DNA of 46,634 nt, from contig PCXA01000015.1 of the NCBI GenBank assembly GCA_002796325.1, positions 77,530 through 124,163 on the forward strand, in the 5' to 3' direction. The position numbers were made by a program, and so were the translations under genes. Position 1 is the first letter of the stretch; each line of letters begins with the position of its first letter. Shown piece after piece: positions 5,103-14,873 of the stretch. Below the pieces are notes generated by a model. The model searched no databases, was not told where the DNA came from, and was given only the letters and a program-made list of their open reading frames with translations. Origin of the DNA: Deltaproteobacteria bacterium CG11_big_fil_rev_8_21_14_0_20_47_16 (GTDB taxonomy: Bacteria; UBA10199; GCA-002796325; 1-14-0-20-47-16).

Positions 5103-5131
5103 CCGTTCAAGATTAAAGCTATCAAAATTAT

Positions 5132-5318
5132 ATCCCCACCATGGCCGTGTGAACCCATTTTTTGAACCCCGTTGAACGAGGTGGGCACCCCACCCACCGC
5201 TTTAGGCTTCTCCCTTTACAGCTATGGGAGCTTGCACACCGCGATGCTTAGGCCGGGTTCCCTAAAAATGGACATCGGTCCAAAAAATAGAGCGTCCATC
5301 ACGTACCCGGCAGGGATT
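5132..5318 (-). ncRNA. ssrS: 6S RNA
   Basis: About 187 nt, placed by synteny (zapA / 6S / 5-formyl-THF cyclo-ligase) and by structure. Read on the minus strand, the 5' end ATCCCTGCC pairs with 3' GGTGGGGAT over 9 bp. An internal loop follows, then CGTG pairs with CACG. The 3' half carries GGAGAAGCCTAAAG (compare the enteric GAGAAGCCTTAAAAC), followed by a GTTCAA/GGGTTCAA hairpin region, as in the known family. 6S RNA mimics an open promoter, binds sigma70-RNA polymerase and lowers transcription in stationary phase. Ends are estimated from the terminal stem, good to about 5 bases. Confidence 0.9.
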
Positions 5319-5360
5319 TCCAATTTAAAAAAGAGCAACAACTCCGACCATTCTACAGGC

Positions 5361-8311: not shown

Positions 8312-8395
8312 GCCGCCGTGGTGGAATTGGCAGACACGTATGGTTCAGGTCCATATGGGAGCAATCCCGTGGGGGTTCAAGTCCCTCCGGCGGCA
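8312..8395 (+). tRNA. tRNA-Leu (anticodon CAG)
   Basis: Acceptor GCCGCCG (8312-8318) pairs with CGGCGGC (8388-8394), discriminator A at 8395. The D-arm contains GTGGAATTGGCAGAC. The anticodon arm is TATGG / TTCAGGT / CCATA, with CAG at the anticodon position. A long class II variable arm (GGGAGCAATCCC region) is typical of leucine tRNA. The T-arm is GGGGG TTCAAGT CCCTC. The 3' CCA is not encoded (ACA TTT follows), so it needs CCA-adding enzyme. Confidence 0.97.
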
Positions 8396-13053: not shown

Positions 13054-13695
13054 ATGAAAAAGACGTTAGTGACAGTACTCATTGTGGTTGGTGTTCTTGC
13101 ACTTTTGGGTATGGGACTGGTGAGCTTCGGTGCGGGAAAATACAACACATTCATCGCGATGAATCAAACCGTGGATAAATCCTGGGCCCAAGTAGAAAAT
13201 GTGCTCCAACGCCGTAACGATTTGATTCCCAATCTGGTCACAACTGTTCAAGGCTATGCCATTCATGAACAGGAAGTGTTTATCAAGGTTGCTGAAGCCC
13301 GCAATCAAGCGATGGCGGCCACAACAATTGATGGCAAGATCAAGGCCAACCAGGCTGTATCCGGAGCCCTCATGACATTGATGGCCACAGTGGAACGCTA
13401 TCCGGACGTGAAGGCCAACCAAAACTTTATGGCGCTACAAGATGAACTGGCAGGCACTGAAAACCGCATTGCGGTTGAACGCAAACGTTACAACGAATCC
13501 GTTCAGGAATATAATACCTTTGCCAAATCATTCCCCAATAATATTCTAGCAACGTTCTTCCATCAGCCAGGCGATCGCGAATTTTTCAAAGCTGCTGAAG
13601 GGGCAACTGAAGCACCTAAAGTGCAATTCAATTACCCCAACCAGCAGCCCGAAGCAGCGCCAGCCGAAGCAGCACCTGCGCCTATTTCTCAGTAA
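13054..13695 (+). CDS. lemA: LemA family protein
   Basis: 213 aa. An N-terminal membrane helix (about 4-24) precedes the LemA fold: YNTFIAMNQTVDKSWAQVEN, then QRRNDLIPNLVTTVQGYA (family signature) and ENRIAVERKRYNESVQEYN. A Pro/Ala-rich tail follows. The family is a helical bundle of unknown function, usually paired with TPM/YgcG proteins; the upstream gene is exactly that. Start: ATG at 13054 after GGGGGAA; an upstream ATG at 13027 is less well placed. A TTGACA box at 12991 suggests its own promoter, though its -10 is poor. The stop codon abuts the palindromic element at 13696. Confidence 0.92.
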   Translation: MKKTLVTVLIVVGVLALLGMGLVSFGAGKYNTFIAMNQTVDKSWAQVENVLQRRNDLIPNLVTTVQGYAIHEQEVFIKVAEARNQAMAATTIDGKIKANQAVSGALMTLMATVERYPDVKANQNFMALQDELAGTENRIAVERKRYNESVQEYNTFAKSFPNNILATFFHQPGDREFFKAAEGATEAPKVQFNYPNQQPEAAPAEAAPAPISQ

Positions 13696-14254
13696 ACATA
13701 AAATCGATTATACGTCTTAGTTTCGTTCAGAATCCAGATGACTTTTCCGACCTGCTCACTCGCCATTTCATCCTCCGACCCTACGTTGTACTGAGTGGCG
13801 TAATCGCTCCGTCATGACTCGACAAAAATGCCTTGGCCACAAAACGAGCTTGAATGTCCTCCTGCTTGTCGGCCTTCAAGCTCGGTGGCCAATGGTATTT
13901 TTGCCATCGTCATACGACTACGCTCATAAGCACGCCTTAATACTCAGTACAACGTAGGTCTCCGAATGAAATGGCGAGCTCACTTGAGTGAAGTATCATT
14001 ACGCGCCAGCGGTAGGCGCCAAACCTCAGCAGGCGTTCACCCAGGCGCGCTTAGGAGCGCGGCGAATGAGGAAAGCAAAACGGCCAGCGGCTAACGCCGC
14101 TATCAGCCGACAGGGGAAGGATCGATAACGGCGATTAGTCCGCGACCGTTTTGCCGACGAATCGCCAGAGCGACTGCGCCATACGCCTGCTGGGGTTTGG
14201 TCGCCAGACGATGGCGTGTGCTAATGGACGAACTTCGGATAATCGATTTTATGT
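13696..14254. repeat. 559-bp nested-palindrome element with inverted termini
   Basis: No gene. The ends are an inverted repeat: ACATAAAATCGATTATACG (13696-13714) against CGGATAATCGATTTTATGT (14236-14254), one mismatch. Palindrome 1 spans about 13759-13978. Its outer arms CTCGCCATTTCAT...TACTGAGT (13759-13796) and ACTCAGTA...GGCGAG (13942-13978) pair, and inner arms around CAAAAATGCCTTGGCCAC (13823-13840) and its near-complement at 13884-13903 continue the stem. Palindrome 2 spans about 13990-14235, with arms GGCGCCAAACCTCAGCAGGCGT (14015-14036, given here only as landmarks) and 14183-14205, plus CAAAACGG/CCGTTTTG inside. The element fills the gap between the convergent lemA and dNK stops. Likely a non-autonomous foldback/MITE-like element or a large structured RNA; no match to a named family is claimed. 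Confidence 0.75.
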
Positions 14255-14258
14255 AATG

Positions 14259-14873
14259 CTAGAGATATTCCCGGAGTTGACTGACAATACGTTCTTGTTC
14301 GATAAAGTCTTCGAGATAGTCGATCTTTTCAGTTTCGACTGTCACAACAGATGACATGGTGTACGTGCCGATCCACTTCTTATACAATTTATCGAGTTGC
14401 TTGATGTAGTCCGCAGGTACATTCATTTCACTGGCGCGACCACGTCGTGCGATGCGTTGCATCAGTGTACGCGCGGAACAGTGCAAATAGATGAGCACCT
14501 TGGGGCGCGGGATGGCGTTTAGAATTGTTTGATACATGGCCATATAGGTTTCGTAATCCCGTTTGGCCATTTTTTTACTACGATATAAATTGGTACAAAA
14601 AATTTCAGCATCTTCAAAAATGGTGCGGTCTTGAACAAGCACTGCCCCGCCTGTGTCTGCAGCCATTTCCTGGTGAATTTTAAACTTTTGAATCAAAAAA
14701 AACATCTGGGACTGAAAGGCATAACCGTCCATATTTTTATAAAAGTCATCCAGATATGGATTTAAGTCATTGGGTTCAAAAAAAGGGGTGTGGCCAAACT
14801 TTTTACACAAGAAATCTACCAGACTAGACTTCCCTGCTCCCATGTTACCTGCAATGGCAATATAATCGGGCAT
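14259..14873 (-). CDS. Deoxynucleoside kinase family protein
   Basis: 204 aa. The P-loop GNMGAGKSS is at residues 9-17, the substrate-binding and DRx..ED motif (QDRTIFED, Arg83 with Asp82 and Glu87) is intact, and the arginine-rich lid is QRIARRGRASE. This is the dNK/dGK fold, phosphorylating deoxynucleosides for nucleotide salvage in the cytoplasm; specificity (dA, dG or dC) cannot be called. Start: ATG at 14873 with GGAG upstream; an in-frame GTG at 14891 is less likely. It is the last gene of the etfB-etfA-acyl-CoA dehydrogenase run, separated from the dehydrogenase by a GC-rich hairpin repeat. Confidence 0.85.
   Translation of the reverse strand: MPDYIAIAGNMGAGKSSLVDFLCKKFGHTPFFEPNDLNPYLDDFYKNMDGYAFQSQMFFLIQKFKIHQEMAADTGGAVLVQDRTIFEDAEIFCTNLYRSKKMAKRDYETYMAMYQTILNAIPRPKVLIYLHCSARTLMQRIARRGRASEMNVPADYIKQLDKLYKKWIGTYTMSSVVTVETEKIDYLEDFIEQERIVSQLREYL

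Follow-up and report, generated by a model that had tools for sequence, protein, structure and literature searches.

Integron attC sites are single-stranded hairpins that are recognized by their shape and combine conserved unpaired bases with variable stems. Bacterial MITEs are short, non-coding, multi-copy sequences with inverted ends. REP, BIME and REPIN sequences, which are associated with RAYT (Y1) transposases, are 20–40 bp long and carry a terminal GTAG/CGTC tag; they are non-coding, multi-copy intergenic palindromes near gene 3' ends, with inverted doublets at fixed spacing, compensatory stems and a conserved part that adjoins a variable, paired one (PMC3116915, PMC3733652). In the organelle DNA of Volvox, palindromes are inserted in palindromes, giving elements of up to 633 nt that are regarded as selfish (PMC2670323).

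We analysed a stretch of 46,634 nucleotides (the window) in which the gap between lemA and a deoxynucleoside kinase gene (dNK) is filled by a palindromic element. With a probability of about 0.6, we read this element as a copy belonging to a family of non-autonomous, hairpin-shaped mobile DNA in the phylum. The family has the REP, BIME and REPIN characters listed above, but its conserved unit is an imperfect hairpin of ~140 nt (core length 125–143 nt, whole hairpins 200–300 nt), its conserved motif lies in the apex and internal loops rather than in a terminal tag, and no RAYT gene adjoined the element copies among the Y1 genes examined. Palindromes nest within palindromes as in Volvox (PMC2670323), where, however, the units are ~50 nt long with TAAA/TTTA loops, whereas the 140-nt core of the present family has complex internal loops and is shared by genomes across a bacterial phylum. 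The element is also short, non-coding and multi-copy with inverted ends, as MITEs are, but no consistent target duplication and no matching autonomous element were found, and its ends vary between copies while staying complementary; it is the structure, not the sequence, that is conserved. With attC sites it shares a shape-type hairpin, conserved unpaired bases and variable stems; unlike them, its copies are dispersed instead of forming cassette arrays, form back-to-back doublets and have long nested stems.

Anatomy of the element and its copies in the same genome

As the preliminary description had claimed, the self-complementary element occupies the full gap between the convergent stops of lemA (13695) and dNK (reverse strand, 14259). 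The gap is exceptional, because other convergent gene pairs of the window are separated by only ~0–72 bp. The folding check proposed there gave −261.8 kcal/mol for the element (z = −14.2, that is, 14 standard deviations below shuffled sequence), and none of 100 shuffles folded equally well. The 19-nt inverted ends, with their one mismatch (95% complementary), were confirmed, and no further match to them was found in the window at up to three mismatches (0.02 expected by chance). Palindrome A has the claimed 220 bp, whereas palindrome B is nearer 215 than the 245 bp given for it. The two are diverged copies of one 140-nt core that sit in opposite orientation, 107 nt apart, within different outer stems (Table 1); palindrome A recurs with 90–95% identity at three other loci (L026, L027 and L028).

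Table 1. Positions of the element, its parts and two RNA genes in the window
Feature	Position	Strand	Remarks
Whole element	13696–14254	.	two core hairpins within inverted ends, spanning the entire lemA–dNK gap
Left inverted end, 19 nt, ACATAAAATCGATTATACG	13696–13714	+	related ends elsewhere changed on both arms
Right inverted end, 19 nt	14236–14254	-	
Palindrome A	13759–13978	.	outer stem 13759–13796 with 13942–13978, enclosing core
Core hairpin A, 140 nt	13797–13936	-	model R1 164 bits, E 8e-39; in training set
Palindrome B	14003–14220	.	other outer stem 14019–14036 with 14183–14200, enclosing diverged core
Core hairpin B, 137 nt	14044–14180	+	model R1 102 bits, E 3e-23; in training set
6S RNA	5129–5319	-	
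tRNA gene	8312–8395	+	

Pieces of the element were found at ~23 places in its own genome (1.95 Mb, 20 contigs), indicating that it is multi-copy and no local oddity. Most of them share 70–97% identity and are often mosaic, with one module found in different outer stems. At least eight contigs end inside element-type sequence; the assembly is thus interrupted at such sites, and the copies of this genome are undercounted. According to ORF calling, convergent genes flank at least 10 of the ~15 readable copies (the window, L026, L030–L035, L117 and L118), and in L026 and L035 a stop codon falls within the outer arm. The outer arms vary between copies yet are largely complementary within each (ACATAAAATCGATTATACG, ACATATAAACGGTTATACG, CATAAAATTGCTTATACG). 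Inspection of these copies for target duplications, another suggested check, gave none that was consistent between them. An origin of the outer stems by inverted duplication of flanking gene ends was also considered; the overlap was suggestive in a few loci and the idea was not established.

A second palindromic module family (AAATTTACCTCGCCGTCTCGCTCGTCGGGCACGACG...) was observed in the same genome (L030:1132-1367, L031:1582-1760, L037:1608-1770, L038:1106-1284 and the ends of L036 and L039). Many of its copies are 95–100% identical, it is inserted in or beside the first family, and several contig ends fall within it.

A core hairpin with conserved loops across the phylum

Outside the own genome, DNA similarity yielded only one short match of 28 bp (in G014), which a covariance model placed inside a real copy. 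This model of the core found full-length matches in 11 further genomes of the phylum, which we take to be GTDB UBA10199, with E values down to 1e-17, and a second model trained on those matches found the core in 16 of 46 phylum genomes and not in the other 30. The search of related genomes that the preliminary description had called for thus gave more than 150 core copies, with a patchy distribution of 1–55 per positive genome (55 in G009, 25 in G014, 17 in G015 and 14 in G037). Carriers among the named records are Deltaproteobacteria bacterium RIFCSPHIGHO2_01_FULL_43_49, bacterium SKS1.bin41 and the NC_groundwater_1218 and NC_groundwater_355 MAGs. Presence varies even within two genera, with no copy in G007 against five in G019 and none in G028 against five in G029. 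The model search detected no core in single MAGs labelled Bdellovibrio, Myxococcales and Thermotogaceae; a loop-pattern search of viral contigs gave no matches, a weak test given that the pattern fits only some subfamilies. At permissive thresholds Rfam returned chance-level matches only, and no described family fits the core. We also found no description of the element family in the literature, of which our coverage was partial; the family is real and apparently undescribed. Sequence-based repeat searches miss it beyond one genome, and DNA elements defined by shape may therefore be widely overlooked.

The cores of these genomes have in common a closing stem of the GGCGC/GCGCC type and an A-tract stem. 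A purine-rich internal loop (GTATGAGGA / ACGAGTAG) is kept across cores, and the apex consists of a three-pair helix with a bulged A and the loop GACAGnGGA (YGACAGnGGA). The loops are conserved while the stems change on both arms, to the point that the apical stem is wholly different between copies around a constant loop (GAGCTTGAA/TTCAAGCTC, GCCGTTAGC/GCTAACGGC and GCGGTAGC/GCTACCGC). When the eight inner hairpins of the own genome were aligned (143 columns), RNAalifold gave 44 pairs, 16 of which had changed on both sides, and many more compensatory changes were present within and between genomes beyond these eight copies. Of 93 copies, 92 had the apical motif YGAC..GGA on the modelled strand and none had it on the opposite one (3.5% expected by chance); this figure is not fully independent, as the model itself favours part of the motif. 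A fixed orientation of cores with respect to the adjacent gene looked strong in the first loci and was dropped because it proved weak over the 93 copies (55 versus 35, a count that rests on crude ORF calls).

The layout seen in the window is a recurrent design, because all close core pairs share it: among the 93 copies, 10 pairs of cores from five genomes lie less than 200 nt apart, and all 10 are in (-,+) arrangement with 86–137 nt between them, which gives the family extragenic inverted doublets at fixed spacing like those of REPs and REPINs. G009 alone has five such pairs, compared with 0.2 expected. The spacer between the paired cores of G009 is itself palindromic (CTCTGCAAATATTTGCAGA type; L280–L284, for example L280 ~1790-1815). 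In G011, two cores of the same orientation, 1.2 kb apart, flank a 223-aa ORF (L169:4719-6198).

Wobble pairs and the RNA alternative

Compensatory changes around conserved asymmetric loops, together with the preference for gene 3' ends, are what would be expected of a structured RNA of gene ends (an mRNA stabilizer, terminator or regulatory RNA) that has spread or been recruited repeatedly, and both strands may be transcribed, because the element often lies between convergent genes. We therefore scored isolated mismatches within helices, using a fold that makes no distinction between G-U and A-C, with 6S RNA from 30 phylum genomes as the control and sole RNA family of the comparison (6S RNA was found in 40 of the 46 phylum genomes). 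The control contained 59 G-U and 14 A-C mismatches per 1564 Watson-Crick pairs, whereas 36 non-redundant copies of the element contained 12 G-U and 11 A-C per 1509, thus no excess of G-U over A-C in the helices (P = 0.012 for the G-U/A-C ratio and 3e-8 for the G-U frequency, with counts taken as independent). Pairing has therefore persisted without the tolerance of wobble pairs that an RNA would show, and the data lean towards a hairpin of DNA and away from an RNA of one strand, which falls short of proof. Close copies in G011 and G026 looked RNA-like (14 G-U versus 2 A-C), and a role of RNA from both strands would give the same G-U/A-C picture as a DNA hairpin. In addition to the rarity of G-U, the lack of an Rfam match and of any terminator-like site speaks against an RNA, and mosaicism and absence within genera fit mobile DNA better; overall we regard the RNA explanation as unlikely.

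Three readings had been offered in the preliminary description, of which the foldback/MITE-like one is best supported, by copies that are multiple, patchy, nested, mosaic and intergenic. The proposed bidirectional terminator gained no support from a pattern scan of 13600–14350, which gave no GC-rich stem followed by a T run, and the position at gene 3' ends is still compatible with it. For an undescribed structured RNA, the phylum-wide conservation of the fold by compensatory changes and the absence of an Rfam match agreed with the proposal, whereas the missing G-U excess was against a one-strand RNA. It had also been proposed that a single conserved copy would argue for RNA and the absence of other copies for a local oddity; neither outcome was obtained, as many copies and compensatory changes occur together.

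Probable mobility, stem upkeep and a possible mechanism

The family is most likely mobile and non-autonomous, following a REPIN-like logic and falling outside the REP family on the features tested. For mobility we count the more than 150 patchy copies, the within-genus differences, the mosaic and nested copies, the 10 of 10 (-,+) pairs, the one-strand apex motif, the wobble contrast with 6S RNA, an interior swap between G028 and G029 and the preference for convergent genes in the own genome. Against it we count that no transposition event was observed, that there is no consistent target duplication and no linked enzyme, that G011 and G026 show a G-U excess, that single changes outnumber double ones in G011 and that only one clear orthologous pair was found. 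In that pair, the orthologous gene ends of G028 and G029 have a common outer stem (CTTCCGGG...CCCGGAAG type) and different interiors, a core in G029 and a different two-hairpin interior in G028, indicating that interiors have been exchanged inside a gene-end hairpin; as the only clear orthologous pair, it gives swapped interiors with no clean empty site and no direction of change. The comparison of G007 with G019 matched one flank only and gave no usable empty site. The search for empty sites in relatives returned differing interiors at one orthologous gene end instead of a clean empty site. The best reading is that the family settles in gene-end hairpins and nests there, like a giant REPIN or BIME.

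Could RAYT (Y1) transposases have moved the element as a very large repeat of the REP/BIME type? PF01797 occurs in 38 of the 46 phylum genomes, REPINs form head-to-head doublets with a fixed spacing and show compensatory changes in their hairpins (PMC3116915), and REPs likewise adjoin convergent gene ends (PMC3733652). However, no core lay beside the Y1 genes examined, model matches being present in only two of the fetched stretches, at more than 2 kb from the gene; the single Y1 gene of the own genome has no such hairpin nearby, and G023 carries copies with no Y1 found (this genome is 83% complete). The size (140–300 nt against 20–40 bp), the missing terminal tag and the presence of an ordinary GTAG-type hairpin instead at one or more Y1 loci (L333) also argue against RAYT transposition, which we consider even less probable than the RNA explanation. 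The TAG-containing motif ACGAGTAG lies in the internal loop, not at the hairpin end, in the alignments inspected. The family makes a case for asking whether Y1/RAYT-like enzymes, or others, can mobilize hairpins that greatly exceed REPs in size.

Within single genomes, close copies often showed as many double Watson-Crick changes as single ones, or more, both counted as distinct minority states per paired column (25 versus 24 in G009, 30 versus 6 in G015, 12 versus 10 in the A-type copies of the own genome, 23 versus 25 in G025 and 11 versus 19 in G014; the exception was G011, with 4 versus 28). A two-base change in the left arm is common to L283 and L284, and only L284 has the matching change in its right arm; between L141 and L157 an entire block is different on each arm. 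Template switching in replication creates and maintains hairpins (PMC8794818), and by inverted copying of flanking DNA it might by itself explain how these hairpins arise and persist, with no transposition: each copy has its own unique long outer stems, and multi-base blocks are altered on both arms. Alone, however, it cannot bring shared loops and a shared paired layout to many sites and genomes, and its correction would erase the conserved asymmetric bulges unless these were selected. Template switching as the sole cause is thus highly improbable; it may well contribute to stem upkeep. The close copies within G009 and within G015 preserve the history of how long palindromes form and are maintained, which makes template switching versus selection testable by counting.

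For the mobile-DNA reading, the following mechanism may be envisaged. The unit would fold in single-stranded DNA, on the lagging strand or during repair. Since the loops are conserved on one strand, we infer that they would be recognized as single-stranded DNA: the apical loop YGACAGnGGA and the purine-rich internal loop could be bound by a putative single-strand-specific enzyme acting in trans. Insertion of copies would take place in the loops of pre-existing hairpins behind genes, nesting the stems, which could have produced the two palindromes inside the 19-bp ends of the window. As their sequence changes, the stems would stay paired because of template switching between arms, because the fold is selected, or for both reasons. 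More tentatively, and with somewhat less than even confidence, we suggest a class of mobile DNA, extending across the phylum and defined by its single-stranded shape, in which a large hairpin with a specific apex inserts into gene-end hairpins by means of a putative single-strand enzyme and its stems are continually rewritten by template switching.

Other repeats were also observed. In G029, and also in G027, a different multi-copy palindromic repeat adjoins the G029 core hairpin (L146:1732-1892) and has more copies in G029 than the core itself. A ~40-nt repeat of REP-like size (L144:1865-1903) has ~30 matches in G019. The GTAG-type hairpin in the stretch around a Y1 gene of G015 (L333:2512-2586; GTAGCAAGGGGCTTTAGTCCC ... 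GGGGCTAAAGCCCCTTGCTAC) is apparently an ordinary REP that coexists with the large hairpins in this genome. Around another Y1 gene, in G025, near-perfect inverted repeats of 29–36 nt (AAGGGGTCAAGTCTTGACAATGGACAGCTT) are present at L179:322-493 and 2382-2541.
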